This document shows positions 47,831 through 54,559 of a stretch of 64,000 nt of DNA, one piece after another (position 1 is the first letter of the stretch; every line of letters begins with the position of its first letter). This DNA is from Acidobacteriota bacterium (GTDB lineage: Bacteria > Acidobacteriota > Thermoanaerobaculia > Multivoradales > Multivoraceae): assembly GCA_011525365.1 (NCBI GenBank), contig WTGQ01000003.1, forward strand, positions 62,001-126,000, in the 5' to 3' direction. Position numbers and translations under genes: made by a program. The notes below the pieces were generated by a model that worked only from the letters and a program-made list of their open reading frames with translations, was not told the DNA's origin and did not search any database.

Positions 47831-49783
47831 ATGCTGAACGTCATCCGCAAGAACATCAAGAGCTTCTATCCGCTGGCCATCGGACTGGCAGGGGTGTTCG
47901 TGCTCCTCGTCTTCACCGACTTCCGGTCGCTCGAGGGCACCCGGGTCAACCCGGACGCCGCCATCCTGGGCGGCGACAGCATCACGTTCGCCGAGTTCGA
48001 ACGCAGCTACCGGAACGCCGAGAGCCGTTACCGGGAGATCTACGGCGACGCATTCAACGCGGATCTCGCTGACCAGCTCCAGTTGCCGGTGCAGGCCCTC
48101 GAAGCCCTGATCAACGACCGCCTTCTCATCATGGAGGCCGAGCGAATGGGGCTGACGGTCAGCGACGAAGAACTGCAGGAAGAGATCCTCTCCGTGCCCG
48201 GCCTGACCGACGGGGCCGGCAACTTCATCGGGGCAAGGCAGTACCAGGATCTCCTGCGCGCGAACCGGCTCACGGTGGACGGGTTCGAGAACGACCTCCG
48301 CAGTGCCGTGCTCGTACGGAAGCTGCAGGCGGCGCTGACCGAGGTCGCCCACGTTTCTGACGCGGAGGTGGAACTGCGCGCCCGCGAGGCCGCCGAACGC
48401 GCCGCGATCCGCTACTTCCAGGTGCCGGCCAGCCGCTTCGCCGACGAGGCCGAACCTTCGAGCGAGGAGGCCGCGGCCTACTTCGAGGAGCACCGCGAGG
48501 AGTTCAAGCTCCCCGAGCGCCGGCGAGTGGGTTATCTCCTGGTCAGCACGAACACGGTGCGGGCCGAACTCGAGGTGACCGACGACGAGGTCCAGAGTTA
48601 CTACGAGGACAACTCGGCCCAGTTCGAGATCCCTGAGCAGGTTCGCGCCAGCCACATTCTCCTGCTCGAGAACGGCGAACGGGACGCGGAGCAGGCGCGC
48701 AGCCTGCTGAACCGGCTGCGCGGCCGCATCGAGGCGGGAGAGGACTTCGCGGCGCTGGCCCGGGAGTACTCGGACGACGAGGCGACGAAGGAGGCCGGCG
48801 GCGATCTCGGCTACTTCGGCCGCGGCGCGATGACGCAGGCCTTCGAGGACGCCGCGTTCGCCGCCGCGAGCGGCGACCTGGTGGGACCGGTCGAGAACCA
48901 GCTCGGTCCGCGCGCCGCCCATCACCTGATCCAGGTCCACGAGCGCCGGGAAGGCGGACGCCAGACCCTCGACGAGGTCTCCAACCTGATCCGTGTCCAG
49001 CTCCTCGCCACCAGGGCCGAGGAAGAGGCGAAGAGCCGGATCGACGCCCTGCACGAGCGGCTGGCCGACGAGTCGTTCGCGGGCGAGGACGAAGCCCGCG
49101 AACTGGCCGCCGCCGAAGCGCTCGTCTATGCCAGCACCGAGCCCTTCGGCGAAGACGACCCCGTGGCCGGCATCGGCCGGAACTTCAACTTCAGTTCCGC
49201 GGCGTTCGGTCTCGAGGCCGGCGCCTGGTCCGAGCCGGTCCGCATCGCGGCTGGCTGGGCTCTCCTGTCGGTGCTCGAGGTGCTGCCGCCTCGCGACTCG
49301 GAGTTCGCGGAAGTCGAAGTGGACGTCCGGGAGGTCGTCCGCGGGCAGAAGGAGAGCGAACTCCTGGCGGCGGCGCTCACCGAAGCCCGGGGGCGCGTCG
49401 AGAACGGGTTGAGCATGGACGACGCGGCCGAGGAGTTCGATGCCGTGATCGAGGAGAGCGGGAGCTTCGGCCTGCGGGAGCCGATCGGCACCCTGGGCGC
49501 CATGCCCGAGCTGTCCCGCGCGGCCTTCGCGCTATCCGCCGGCGAGACAGGCGGACCGGTGGACACTCCGTTCGGCGCCGTCCTGTTCGAAGTCACCGAG
49601 CGCGAGTCCTTCGATCCCGTGCTGTTCGATCCGGAGGCGACACGGAACGAGCTGCTGGCCGAGCGCAACCTGACGATGCTCCAGTCCCTGCTGCAGCAGC
49701 TCCGCGAGGAGGTCGGCGTCCGCTACACCCAGGACTTCATCGAGAACTTCGGTCTGGCCGAGACCGAGGCGGCCGGCACCTGA
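47831..49783 (+). CDS. PpiD/SurA-like periplasmic peptidyl-prolyl isomerase
   Basis: 650 aa. One N-terminal membrane anchor (about 14-30), a SurA_N-like chaperone region (LQLPVQALEALINDRLLIMEAERMGL), a parvulin domain at about 268-370 (QVRASHILLLENGERDAEQA, FAALAREYSDD, GGDLGYFGRGAM) and a second, degenerate parvulin-like half with GSFGLREPIGTLGAMPELS. Layout equals PpiD. It assists folding of exported proteins. Upstream gene of ruvA, with 25 bp between them. Confidence 0.92.
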   Translation: MLNVIRKNIKSFYPLAIGLAGVFVLLVFTDFRSLEGTRVNPDAAILGGDSITFAEFERSYRNAESRYREIYGDAFNADLADQLQLPVQALEALINDRLLIMEAERMGLTVSDEELQEEILSVPGLTDGAGNFIGARQYQDLLRANRLTVDGFENDLRSAVLVRKLQAALTEVAHVSDAEVELRAREAAERAAIRYFQVPASRFADEAEPSSEEAAAYFEEHREEFKLPERRRVGYLLVSTNTVRAELEVTDDEVQSYYEDNSAQFEIPEQVRASHILLLENGERDAEQARSLLNRLRGRIEAGEDFAALAREYSDDEATKEAGGDLGYFGRGAMTQAFEDAAFAAASGDLVGPVENQLGPRAAHHLIQVHERREGGRQTLDEVSNLIRVQLLATRAEEEAKSRIDALHERLADESFAGEDEARELAAAEALVYASTEPFGEDDPVAGIGRNFNFSSAAFGLEAGAWSEPVRIAAGWALLSVLEVLPPRDSEFAEVEVDVREVVRGQKESELLAAALTEARGRVENGLSMDDAAEEFDAVIEESGSFGLREPIGTLGAMPELSRAAFALSAGETGGPVDTPFGAVLFEVTERESFDPVLFDPEATRNELLAERNLTMLQSLLQQLREEVGVRYTQDFIENFGLAETEAAGT

Positions 49784-49808
49784 CCGCGGCGCGGCGCTCC
49801 ATAGCGGC

Positions 49809-50426
49809 TTGATCGGCTATCTGCGCGGGCGCCGCCTGACCCTCGAGCCCGAACGCCTGGTGCTCGACACCAACGGCGTCGGCTACGCCGTGCGGATCCC
49901 GCTGTCGACCTACTTCGAGTTGGAGAAGCTCGACCCGGCCGCCGAGATCGGCCTGTTCATCCACACCCACGTCCGCGCCGACGCGATCGAGCTCTTCGGC
50001 TTCTGGACCGAGGCCGAACGGACCGTGTTCGAGCATTGTCTCGCCGTCAGCGGCGTCGGCCCCCGGCTCGCCCAGGTCGTCCTGTCCGGCGGTTCCACGA
50101 CGGACCTGCTGAACGCCATCGGTGGCGGCAACGTGGCGGCCCTGACCCGGATCCCGGGCATCGGCCGCAAGACGGCCGAACGGATGGTCCTGGAACTCCG
50201 GGAAAAGGCGAAGACGCTACTCGCCGAGGCCGGCGCCGAACCGCCCCCTGCCGAGCCCGAAGCCGACCGCGAGGACGAACAGGAACAGGCCGTCAGCGCC
50301 CTGGTCAACCTCGGCTACCGCGCGTCCGAGGCGCAACGCGCCGTCTCACGCGCGCTCGCGGAAGAACCCGAGATGGACTTCCAGGAACTCCTGCGCCGGA
50401 GCCTGCGGCGGCTGTCGCGGCTCTGA
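49809..50426 (+). CDS. ruvA: Holliday junction helicase subunit RuvA
   Basis: 205 aa from a TTG at 49809 (MIGYLRGRRLTL). OB-fold N-terminal domain with VLDTNGVGYAVRIPLST, two helix-hairpin-helix motifs (AVSGVGPRLAQVVLSG, RIPGIGRKTAERMVLEL), an acidic linker and the C-terminal three-helix RuvB-binding domain (ALVNLGYRASEAQRAV). Length normal. ruvB would normally follow on the same strand; here it is on the other strand behind a MITE-like element. Confidence 0.96.
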   Translation: MIGYLRGRRLTLEPERLVLDTNGVGYAVRIPLSTYFELEKLDPAAEIGLFIHTHVRADAIELFGFWTEAERTVFEHCLAVSGVGPRLAQVVLSGGSTTDLLNAIGGGNVAALTRIPGIGRKTAERMVLELREKAKTLLAEAGAEPPPAEPEADREDEQEQAVSALVNLGYRASEAQRAVSRALAEEPEMDFQELLRRSLRRLSRL

Positions 50427-50464
50427 CGGCCCGGAGGGCGTCGGAGAGGCCTCGGACGCACTCG

Positions 50465-50638
50465 CCGTCCTGGGGCACGAGGGGTCAGCTCCCAGGGTGA
50501 CGCGGGCGCTTGAGAGGAGATGGAGAGGGTTGCGCCCGCTCCGCTTCACTCGCTCCGGTTGGTTTCGGATCCTGTGCGGTCGTTGGCCGTCGCTCGTTCA
50601 GAGGCACCTGGGAGCTGACCCCTCGTGCCCCAGGACGG
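50465..50638 (+). mobile_element. MITE-like element, copy A (174 bp, 32-bp perfect TIRs)
   Basis: Left end 50465-50496 begins CCGTCCTGGGGCACGAGGGG; the reverse complement of 50607-50638 is identical over all 32 bp. The 110-bp interior codes for nothing plausible. A second copy, inverted, is at 51742-51915, the same length and differing at only a few bases. Together they bracket ruvB. No clear target-site duplication is seen; 12 bp beyond the right end (GCTGGAGGT[C/T]GT) are also shared with copy B, so the unit may be slightly longer on that side. Confidence 0.85.
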
Positions 50639-50669
50639 GCTGGAGGTCGTTGGTGGCCCTGGTGCGCCT

Positions 50670-51701
50670 TCAGAACAGGGTGCCCCGGACTTCCAGGTCC
50701 AGGTGTTCGTACGCTTGCTTGGTGGCCACGCGGCCGCGGCGGGTGCGCTGGAGGAATCCCTTCTGGACAAGGTAGGGCTCGTAGAAGTCCTCGATCGTGC
50801 CCTCGTCCTCCCCGACCGACGCCGCAAGCGCCTTGAGGCCGGCGGGGCCGCCTCCGTACTGCTCGATCAGCAGTTTCATGATTCTGCGGTCGATCTTGTC
50901 CAGGCCCTGTTCGTCGACTTCCTGCTGAAGGAGAGCCTGGTTGGCGGTGTCGCGGTCGATCCGTCCGTCTGCTTCGATCTGCGCGTAGTCGCGCACCCGG
51001 CGCAGCAGCCGGTTCGCGATCCTGGGCGTGCCGCGGCTGCGCCGGGCGATCTCATCGGCGCCGCCCAGATCGACGGGCACTTCGAGCAGCTCGGCCGAGC
51101 GCTGGATGATCACGCTGAGGACATCCGGACCGTAGAAGTCGAGCCGGTGGACGATGCCGAAGCGCCCCTGCAGCGGCGGTGTGATCAGGCCGGCGCGGGT
51201 CGTGGCGCCAACCAGCGTGAACCGGGGCAGATCGATGCGCACCGTCTTGGCCATCGGCCCGGCACCGATCACCAGATCGAGCTGGAAGTCCTCGAGCGCC
51301 GGGTAGAGGATCTCCTCCACCGTCGGACCGAGCCGATGGATCTCGTCGATGAAAAGGACGTCTCCGGGTTCGAGGTTGGTCAGAATGGCGGCAAGATCGC
51401 CCGGTCGTTCCAGGACCGGACCAGAGGTGGACCGCAAGGTGGAACCCATCTCCCTGGCGATGATGTGCGCCAGGGTCGTCTTGCCCAGCCCGGGGGGCCC
51501 GAACAGCAGCACGTGGTCCAGAGCTTCGCCCCGCCGGCGCGCCGCCTGCATGTAGATGTCGAGTAGCTCGACGATCTTCTCCTGGCCCAGGTACTCGCTC
51601 AACCGTTGCGGTCGAAGCGACGGTTCGACGCGACGGTCCTCCGCGTCCCGGGCGGCTGAAAGAACGCTCTCTTCACCGTCGGTGCCGCCCGTCCCGGCCA
51701 T
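50670..51701 (-). CDS. ruvB: Holliday junction helicase motor RuvB
   Basis: 343 aa. AAA+ ATPase: Walker [17 protein letters not shown], Walker [21 protein letters not shown], sensor 1 LVGATTRAG, arginine finger region [12 protein letters not shown], and the C-terminal winged helix [22 protein letters not shown]. Complete and apparently functional. Orientation is opposite to ruvA and it stands alone between inverted MITE copies, so it needs its own promoter; none is obvious in the 40 bp before the start. Confidence 0.97.
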
Positions 51702-51741
51702 GCGCGGATGCTATCGCGGCCTCTCGGCCACAACCTCCAGC

Positions 51742-51915
51742 TCGTCCTGGGGCACGGGGGGTGAGCTCCCAGGTGCCTCTGAACGAGCGACGGCCAACGA
51801 CCGCACAGGATCCGAAACCAACCGGAGCGAGTGAAGCGGAGCGGGCGCAACCCTCTCCATCTCCTCTCAAGCGCCCGCGTCACCTTGGGAGCTGACCCCC
51901 CGTGCCCCAGGACGG
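51742..51915 (-). mobile_element. MITE-like element, copy B (174 bp, inverted relative to copy A)
   Basis: Its reverse complement matches copy A almost throughout, including the interior (CGCTTGAGAGGAGATGGAGA and onward). Differences include GGGGGG for GAGGGG near both ends and CCCAAGG for CCCAGGG. It occupies most of the 314-bp gap between ruvB and thrA; the remaining 100 bp (51916-52015) is the thrA leader, in which I see no clear promoter or riboswitch. Confidence 0.85.
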
Positions 51916-52015
51916 GCGGGTGCACGCCACGCCGTGGCGCCGACCGTCGTTGGGGTGTACGCTATTGCGCCTTTCGCGCCCTGCGACGACGACGTGACTC
52001 CACCTCCGACGCACC

Positions 52016-54559
52016 ATGAAGGTACTCAAGTTCGGCGGCTCTTCCGTGGCCGATGCAAGCCGCCTGCAAGCGGCGGCTCGGATCGTCGAACGGCAACTCG
52101 ACGGTTGTCCGGGGGACGGTGCGGTGGTGGTGTCCGCCCTTGGCGGGGTGACGGACCGCCTGCTGGCACTGGCGGCGGGCGCTGTCGAGGGTAACGGGGG
52201 CGCTGAGGCGGCGCGCGAGGCCGCCGCGCTTCGAGAGCACCACCTGAAGATCGCGGCCGAGGTCGCAGCCGAGGCCGACCTTCCCGCTCTCAGGACGGCC
52301 CTCGAGGATCTGTGCGACGGCCTGGTCCGGGAACTCGGCGACTGCGAACGGACCGGGGTCACCGTGGAGCGGCCGCGGGAAGCATGGATCGACCGCATCG
52401 TCTGCCACGGCGAGCTTCTGTCGACCCAGCTCCTGGCCGCGGCGCTCCGCGCCCGGGGCCTGCCGGCCGAGGCCCGCGACGCCCGTCCGCTGGTGCGGAC
52501 CGACCGTTCCTTCCAGGCGGCGCTGGTCGCGCTCGAGCCGACGCTGAACGCGATCGCAGCCCACTTCACCGGCCTCGGCGAGGACGGACCCCTGCAGGTG
52601 GTCACCGGCTTCCTCGGCAGCACGCCCGAGGGCGAGACGACGACCCTGGGCCGCAGCGGTTCCGATTTGACGGCTTCTCTCGTCGGCGCCGCGCTCGACG
52701 CCGAGCGGATCGAAATCTGGACCGACGTCCCGGGGGTGATGACGGCCGATCCGAGACGCGTCGAAGACGCCCTGCCGATCCCGCGGCTGAGCTACGAGGA
52801 GATGCTCGAGCTCTCCCACTTCGGCGCCAGGGTGGTCTACCCGCCGACGGTCACCCCGGCCCGCCGCAAGGCCATTCCGCTGCTCGTTCGCAGCACCCTC
52901 GATCCCGAGCACCCCGGAACCCTGGTCGACGGCGGCAGGGACCGGCAGCGGGCTCGCGGAACGGCGGTCACCGGCATCTCCTCGATCGACGACGTCCACC
53001 TGATGCTCCTGGTCGGCGACAACCTGGTCGGCACCCCGGGGGTCGCCGCGCGGCTCTTCGACGCCCTGGCGGCGAGCGGAGCCAGCGCCATCCTGATCTC
53101 GCAGGCGTCGAGTGAGCACTCGATCTGCTTCGCGGTCGAGCCCGGAGTCTCCGAAGCCGCCCGCGAAGCGGTCGAGGCCGAGTTCCGGTCGGAGATCGAG
53201 TCCGGATCGGTCCGGCCCCTGATCGTCGAGCGCGACCAGTCGATCGTCGCGGTGGTCGGCGACGGTATGCGGGAGCGCCCGGGCATCGCCGGCCGGGTGT
53301 TCGGGATCCTCGGCCGGCGGGCGGTCAACGTGCGGGCCGTGGCCCAGGGTTCGTCCGAGCGGAACATCTCGATGGTCGTCGCAAGGGCCGACCAGGGCCG
53401 CGCGGTGCGCTGGATCCACCGGGAGTTCTTCCGTGGCTCCGCCTCCGGTCGGCTCGCGCTCTACGTGCTGGGCGTCGGCGGCGTCGGATCCGCGCTGCTG
53501 CGCCAGCTCGCCGCCGAACGGGACGCGCTCGAACGGCGGGGCATCGACCTGCAGTTGCGGGGATTGGCGAGCTCGCGTTTCATGGAACTCGCGGTGCGCC
53601 GGGGCGGCAGGCGCCTGGACCCCGGCGCCGCCGAAGACCCGGACGGCTGGCGGAGCGCCCTGGAGCGGGGCGGCGAAGCGGCCCACCTCGACCGGCTGCT
53701 CGAGCACCTCGGCGAGACCGCCGCCGGCGGCGGCCGGACGATTCTGGTCGACGTCACGGCGAGCGGCGCGATGAGCGCCGTCTACCACCGCGCGCTCGCG
53801 GCCGGCGCCGCGGTGGTCAGCGCGAACAAGCTGCCGTTCGCGGGGCCGATCGCGGACTTCCGCGCGTTCCGCGCGGACGGCGGGGCGAACGTCTTCCACG
53901 AGGCGACCGTGGGCGCCGGCCTGCCGGTGCTCCACACCGTCGACCTGCTGCTGGGCGCGGGCGATCCGATCGAGTCCGTCTCGGGCGTCTTCTCCGGAAC
54001 GCTGGCCTATCTCACCGGCGAGTTGAGCGCGCGGCAGGTGTGGAGCGACGCCGTGCGCCGCGCCCACCGGCTGGGCTACACGGAACCGGATCCCCGCGAC
54101 GATCTCGGCGGACTGGACGTGGCGCGCAAGCTGCTCATCCTGGCCCGGCTCTGCGGCGCCGATCTCGAAATGGACGACGTCGACGTGGCGCCCATGCTCG
54201 ACCGGCCCGACCTCGCCGACCTGCCGCTCGAGGACTACTGGCAACGCCTCGCCTCCGCCGATGAGGAGATGGCCGCCCGCTTCGCCGAGGCCAGGTCCGC
54301 CGGACTCGAACTCGCCTATCTCGCCGAACTCGAGACGGGCGGCGAGGGAGCAACGGCCCGGGTCGGCCTCCAGGCCGTCCCGTCCGACCATCCGGTGGCC
54401 GGAATGCCGGCCTCGGACAACATGTTCGTCTTCCGCAGCCAGCGCTACGACGCGCGGCCGCTGATCGTCCAGGGACCCGGCGCCGGGACCGAGCTCACCG
54501 CCGGCGGCGTGTTCGGCGACATCCTGCGCGCCTGGGCCGAGCGGGGAGCCTCACCATGA
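52016..54559 (+). CDS. thrA: bifunctional aspartate kinase / homoserine dehydrogenase
   Basis: 847 aa. Residues 1-300: aspartokinase ([45 protein letters not shown]). Two ACT domains (about 318-390 and 405-465; [20 protein letters not shown] and [20 protein letters not shown]) probably sense threonine. From about 480: homoserine dehydrogenase with nucleotide loop [24 protein letters not shown] and [22 protein letters not shown]. It catalyses steps 1 and 3 of the aspartate pathway. First gene of thrA-asd-thrB-thrC; stop overlaps asd by 4 nt. Confidence 0.96.

Follow-up and report, generated by a model that had tools for sequence, protein, structure and literature searches.

Repeated reorientation of ruvB between inverted hairpin elements in a genus of Acidobacteriota

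The gene ruvB is reversed relative to its neighbours in 8 of 21 species of one genus of uncultured Acidobacteriota in the family Multivoraceae, and we consider it likely that homologous recombination between two copies of a hairpin element, placed in opposite orientation, has flipped the ruvB segment repeatedly. Orientation varies from species to species, the neighbouring genes hold their places, and the switch points fall within the elements. The ruvB sequences also appear not to follow the history of the neighbouring genes, which points to exchange of alleles between species at the same locus.

The ruvB locus and its orientation among relatives

The locus was found in the window, i.e. the whole stretch of 64,000 nucleotides under analysis, in a genome of 4.22 Mb in three contigs (G000); the sample codes suggest what we take to be sponge hosts. 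ruvA and ruvB converge there, bounded by a PPIase/SurA-like gene and the gene for aspartokinase/homoserine dehydrogenase, AK-HSD (Table 1). This convergence had been proposed in a sequence-only reading of the window, and Pfam identifies both genes. The same reading had placed two near-identical 174-bp elements in opposite orientation around ruvB, with coordinates that proved correct, and had argued that a flip would bring ruvB about 40 bp behind the element on the strand of ruvA; in a virtual flip of the segment the ruvB start indeed comes to lie 40 bp beyond the left element (a count over 51702-51741). The inverted repeat arms (50465-50650 and 51730-51915) are 186 nt long and 97% complementary, with 1079 nt between them, and a gapped alignment of the arms extends over 194 columns at 95.8% (about 50458-50650 and 51730-51923, converted coordinates). 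Each arm is itself a hairpin with terminal inverted repeats of 32-35 nt, perfect over 32 nt in the left copy and 91% over 35 nt in the right copy. The right copy is 98% identical with the left, the next best genomic copy reaching 82%, and ruvB is the only gene that the pair encloses.

Table 1. Features of the ruvB locus in the source genome (window coordinates)
Feature	Position	Strand	Basis and remarks
ruvA (TTG start), fixed left flank	49809..50426	+	Pfam RuvA_N, HHH_5, RuvA_C
Left hairpin element copy	50454..50650	+	Covariance model R1 match G000:C2:112454-112650; 174-bp core with terminal inverted repeats 50465-50638
ruvB, inverted gene	50670..51701	-	Pfam RuvB_N, AAA_lid_4, RuvB_C
Predicted -10-like motif TAGCAT, ending 6 nt ahead of the start codon (ATG) of ruvB	51708..51713	-	Function predicted only
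Right hairpin element copy, inverted	51730..51927	-	R1 match G000:C2:113730-113927; core 51742-51915
Aspartokinase/homoserine dehydrogenase (AK-HSD), fixed right flank	52016..54559	+	Pfam AA_kinase, ACT, Homoserine_dh

The genus was sampled with 21 genomes, one per species (G000 and 20 congeners in which ruvB was found), and each locus was oriented by its best match to ruvA, the PPIase gene or the AK-HSD gene. ruvB is reversed in G000, G001, G003, G006, G012, G014, G018 and G020 and codirectional with ruvA in the other 13 genomes (G002, G004, G005, G007, G008, G009, G010, G011, G013, G015, G016, G017 and G019). The genes mreB, PPIase, ruvA, AK-HSD and asd are constant in position and strand wherever the stretch shows them: ruvA is on one strand with PPIase and with AK-HSD in each of the 21 genomes that shows these genes, and AK-HSD lies on the strand of ruvA in all 19 genomes whose stretch shows it (those of G009 and G011 stop before this gene). 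The two ruvB contigs of G007 are both codirectional, and no mixed orientation is seen inside that assembly.

Several ruvB loci also differ in other ways. The reversed ruvB of G020 (L045) is without 54 codons in frame (alignment codons 141-194), by either a real deletion or an assembly fault. In G002 (L048) the left element and ruvB are separated by about 1.3 kb of additional DNA, which includes an open frame of 167 aa. In G015 (L044) and G009 (L063) ruvB is split over frames, as is AK-HSD in G015, possibly through sequencing errors.

In the same family but outside the genus, ruvB is reversed in G021 and codirectional in G022 and G023. More widely, 94 loci were reduced to 88 outside the genus by setting aside five genus loci (L068-L072) and a duplicate (L033 = L066), and some of the 88 may be one species under two handles. 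Among them are 73 adjacent ruvA-ruvB pairs, 72 codirectional and one, that of G021, reversed; 6 further loci are codirectional but with the two genes more distant, and 9 have no detectable ruvA in reach. The relative orientation of ruvA and ruvB in close relatives, to which the sequence-only reading had looked for a check, is thus variable inside the genus between fixed flanking genes and almost uniform outside it.

Breakpoints, element loss and the number of changes

Spacers of 15-400 nt were compared between genomes, in pairs within one clade only. For opposite-orientation pairs in clade A, the inner spacers align better when flipped in 22 of 24 comparisons, the two exceptions being at noise level (z below 1), and the outer spacers align better unflipped in 25/25. 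Same-orientation controls from this clade align better unflipped at both places (inner 18/21, outer 24/24). Between G018 and G016, for example, the spacers give z values of 36 and 19 flipped and of -0.5 and -1 unflipped. Clade B is in the same direction (inner flipped 2/3, outer unflipped 2/2), with the inner-spacer test clouded because the repeats, whose arms measure 349-377 nt in G014 and G007, extend almost to ruvB. Since the inner spacers move with ruvB and the outer spacers stay, the breakpoints are placed within the elements, and a crossover within the element, roughly 200 bp long, is the most likely. The inversion of ruvB that had been suspected from one genome is thus supported, with breakpoints within both elements and with orientation changed repeatedly in the genus.

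An inverted repeat of this kind may also mislead an assembler, and the arms in G000 are short and 97% complementary. We give almost no credence to an assembly artefact, because ruvB is reversed as well in G001, G003 and G012, whose loci no longer show a recognisable pair of elements, and in G018 despite arms about 85% alike.

Of the 19 complete loci in the genus, defined by ruvA, ruvB and AK-HSD on one contig, 12 have both elements recognised (5 reversed, 7 codirectional), five have one and two have none. One or both elements are thus unrecognised in seven, of which 3 are reversed and 4 codirectional, and remnants of lost copies are seen in several spacers. Once one copy is lost the orientation state should freeze, and the loci missing an element do look locked, in either orientation. 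Several observations speak against recurrent inversion. The reversed G018 has arms only about 85% alike, possibly by later divergence; the reversed G001 retains only a remnant of one element; and the reversed ruvB of G021 has no element and no fitting flanking inverted repeat, only a weak 22-nt pair with one arm inside ruvB. Also, apbE and a TPR-protein gene, enclosed by the same element pair, are unflipped wherever seen, and the orientation difference between G001 and G016 goes with an import of ruvB (see below). Convergent ruvA and ruvB without elements, which the sequence-only reading had considered fatal to its proposal, therefore does occur, in G021 of another genus; within the genus G001 comes closest, with its one-element remnant.

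Orientation changes were counted on trees built from the best single tblastn segment per gene, so that ruvB of G015 (frameshifted) and of G009 enters only partly, and such counts take flips and imports of an already reversed allele together. On the flank tree (mreB, PPIase, AK-HSD and asd) the genus requires 6 changes, each of them forced by well-supported (starred) branches. Of 500 label shuffles, 206-222 need no more, and orientation is thus unclustered on that tree. The ruvA tree requires 7 changes, 4 of them forced, and the ruvB tree 5, with 3 forced by well-supported branches and 67 of 500 shuffles as low. A single reversed clade is rejected by the AU test for the flanks (p = 1.6e-58), for ruvA (p = 7.9e-7) and for ruvB (p = 0.0014). 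The reversed G014 and the codirectional G007 are sisters on both the flank tree and the ruvB tree. Because most outgroup loci are codirectional, the ancestor of the genus was probably codirectional too, and back-reversals are possible.

Probable exchange of ruvB alleles and the predicted ruvB leader

In clade means of fourfold-site identity (L042-L067 loci, G011 omitted), ruvB reaches 75.4% between clades A and B, close to the 78.4% within B and the 81.7% within A; for five neighbouring genes the A-B identity is 57-62%. Judged from these identities, ruvB looks like a gene pool common to clades A and B, which points to exchange between species. Clade C ruvB shows 66.2% with A and 62.9% with B, within or below the range of other genes, and sharing is less clear there. 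One case is the pair G001 and G016, 98-100% identical over most of the flanks, with a divergent tract that covers ruvB (92-95%), the last third of ruvA (94%) and the first sixth of AK-HSD (89%). The ruvB of G001 is close to that of G006 (98-100%, both reversed), and that of G016 to that of G008 (96-99%, both codirectional). Because the closest match of each ruvB here is in a less related species with the same orientation, the change came, or came also, by import, and at least this one orientation difference appears to go with import of a ruvB stretch and not with a simple flip. In G011 (L062), which has no element between ruvA and ruvB, ruvB is far more divergent than the flanks predict and is likely an imported allele.

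These results could also be explained by one or two ancient inversions, with the reversed ruvB alleles then spreading between species through homologous recombination at the flanks. Both the A-B identity of ruvB (75.4% against 57-62% in the neighbours, and only 78.4% within B) and the G001/G016 tract, matching G006 and G008 with orientation shared in each case, would be expected from such spread. We nevertheless regard it as rather improbable, because even the ruvB tree, on which the history of the alleles themselves is traced, requires 5 changes, 3 of them forced, and rejects one reversed clade (p = 0.0014), and because G014 and G007 differ in orientation although both ruvB and the flanks make them sisters.

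The ruvB start was searched for the motif TANNAT at a distance of 5-8 nt from an ATG, the ATG lying no more than 420 nt from where the tblastn match begins. Such a motif precedes the ruvB ATG in 21/21 genus genomes in both orientations, with a gap of 6 nt in 20 genomes and of 7 nt in G011, and is predicted to be the -10 box of a transcript with little or no leader. A sigma-70 consensus scan of 49700-52100 found no promoter or terminator, so that conservation is what speaks for a ruvB promoter. In 10 of the 13 codirectional genomes, moreover, the left element, a strong hairpin, lies between ruvA and ruvB. The sequence-only reading had suggested that flipping might switch co-expression of ruvA and ruvB on and off. 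That part does not hold up well: the predicted leader travels with ruvB in 21/21 genomes and the hairpin separates the two genes even in most codirectional loci, which makes such a switch unlikely, although read-through from ruvA would differ between the two states.

Recurrent inversion between the elements, which we prefer, would proceed as follows. From a codirectional ancestor with ruvB enclosed by an inverted pair of about 200-bp elements, homologous recombination of the RecA type between the copies would invert the ruvB segment, and loss of an element would lock the orientation reached. In both states ruvB would be transcribed from the predicted promoter just before its start codon, which moves with the gene, so that a flip would end the coupling to ruvA but leave ruvB expressed, and may be nearly neutral. 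The locus would also take up ruvB alleles from other species, as the sequence identities suggest, and an import can carry its orientation along. A bolder extension, in which ruvB is a genus-wide cassette both invertible and exchangeable, flipping within populations, swapped between species and locked by element loss, seems doubtful to us; if true, the recombination machinery would keep rearranging and replacing its own gene, ruvB being the Holliday-junction motor.

The element family, competing mechanisms and known systems

The element measures about 200 bp; its ends are asymmetric and its middle is structured. The RNA fold of the left copy has an energy of -123 kcal/mol, which corresponds to z = -9.4 in a comparison with 200 shuffles. 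Predicted stems covary among 16 aligned copies: pairing holds in 95.9% of cells, and 13 of 51 pairs are changed on both sides (91.3% and 6.2 in shuffles), figures that lean toward structure because RNAalifold drew the structure from the same alignment. A covariance model built from the 16 copies, at a threshold of E <= 1e-10, finds 18 distinct places in G000 and matches in 21/21 genus genomes, G000 included, and in 0/39 others of a 60-genome comparison. Matches per genus genome range from 7 to 54 at this threshold, with a few places matched on both strands. At most 41 candidates per genome were scored in the 60-genome comparison, so that some of its copy numbers are minimum values; for G017, for example, it gives at least 39 matches and a separate count 54. 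In six genomes, adjacent copies separated by less than 2 kb face inward (+,-) in 13 of 14 cases, one being (-,-) and none outward, and at 2-5 kb two are (-,-), two (+,+) and one (+,-). An Rfam search of the window returned two tRNAs and no match at the elements. Two further arrangements were seen. In G014 (G014:C1:330952-331482, L254:4957-5367) two copies face each other 66 nt apart, and in G000 (G000:C1:2100379-2104389, L187:5380-9390) two complementary element halves (model positions 8-99 and 97-199) are separated by about 3.8 kb that contain an lptD-like gene and a broken gene for an IS110-type transposase.

The elements had been called MITEs, and their size, terminal inverted repeats and multiple dispersed copies fit that name, the mobility that it implies being putative. 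By eye, no target-site duplication is seen at the core ends, and on either side the conserved sequence continues beyond the core for about 12 nt.

Inverted element pairs enclose other genes as well. In G000 one pair (G000:C1:2040177-2041694; L148, L005) surrounds apbE just behind an nqrF-like gene; its neighbours are presumably nqrF and a small gene resembling nqrM. apbE lies on the nqrF strand in all 16 genus genomes examined, with both elements at least partly present in 9 of them. Another pair (G000:C1:997198-998338; L178) surrounds the gene of a 197-aa TPR protein, near a pyruvate kinase gene and a molybdopterin-binding dehydrogenase gene. Relative to the dehydrogenase gene its strand is constant in 13 of 14 genomes, and in the remaining one, G001, the stretch does not include the dehydrogenase gene; both elements are present in 7 of the 14, and no match to the TPR gene was found in G011 and G012. 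The gene larC keeps its orientation to its neighbours in 14 of 14 genomes examined but says little, because only G017 has the element pair there. Since apbE and the TPR gene are never flipped where seen, an element pair alone is insufficient for flipping, and ruvB may differ by tolerating both orientations, perhaps through its own promoter, or by frequent exchange.

Breakpoints inside a conserved inverted site might equally be produced by a site-specific invertase acting on the elements, as in an inverton, and the IS110-type transposase beside an element half elsewhere in G000 belongs to the protein class of the Piv invertase. We consider this very improbable: six scanned locus genes (mreB, PPIase, ruvA, ruvB, AK-HSD and asd) include no recombinase, the sole match in G000 to IS110 (PF01548), the one family searched, has an in-frame stop, and apbE and the TPR gene do not flip with the same pair. 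A third mechanism, in which the pair transposed as a MITE or composite MITE, excising ruvB and reinserting it reversed at the same place, would accord with a genus-specific family with terminal inverted repeats in 21/21 genomes and with the 13 of 14 inward-facing neighbours below 2 kb in six genomes. It is highly improbable in our judgement, as ruvB sits between the same neighbours in every genus genome showing both sides, the elements have no known transposase partner (IS110 alone having been searched), and several reinsertions into one gap are less simple than inversion. Homologous recombination between the copies is preferred over both.

With some three to six changes of orientation in one genus, this core repair gene amounts to a natural experiment on the importance of gene order, operon membership and strand for ruvAB. 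Close species occur in opposite states, and the element pair is complete at some loci but not at others, so that one can test what it costs to uncouple ruvB from ruvA. The locus also suggests a route by which small hairpin repeats could make a housekeeping gene a hotspot for inversion and interspecies exchange.

Among known systems, REP and BIME sequences are extragenic palindromes with a covarying stem, as is the ruvB-flanking element, which differs in its length of about 200 bp, its asymmetric ends, its structured middle and its 7 to 54 matches per genus genome. In a phase-variable inverton, a segment bounded by inverted repeats is found in both orientations, and the ruvB segment likewise lies between inverted repeats in both orientations among species; unlike invertons, it has no recombinase among the neighbours scanned, contains the whole of ruvB with its own predicted promoter, and was seen reversed between species. 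In a review, MITEs are described as hotspots for homologous recombination (PMC10969869). With MITEs and composite units such as TIME-COMP (PMC13367494), the elements share small size, terminal inverted repeats, many copies and gene-flanking pairs; they differ in that the pair has remained with one housekeeping gene across many congeneric species, and in that no transposase partner or target duplication is shown. Among the matches listed in a search of the open literature, by titles and abstract starts, no report of a ruvB inversion was found. In two further papers, inversions larger than 10 kb between inverted repeats are described between strains of two bacterial species (PMC5372343), and the inversion of IS elements in Wolbachia (PMC3004938). 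As in those cases, the inverted repeats at the ends are unchanged after inversion and breakpoints are reused; what sets the present case apart from them is a single core repair gene, small hairpin elements and repeated changes of orientation across a genus. Repeat-mediated inversion is a known process (PMC5372343, PMC3004938), and ruvB as the gene that is probably flipped is what differs here.
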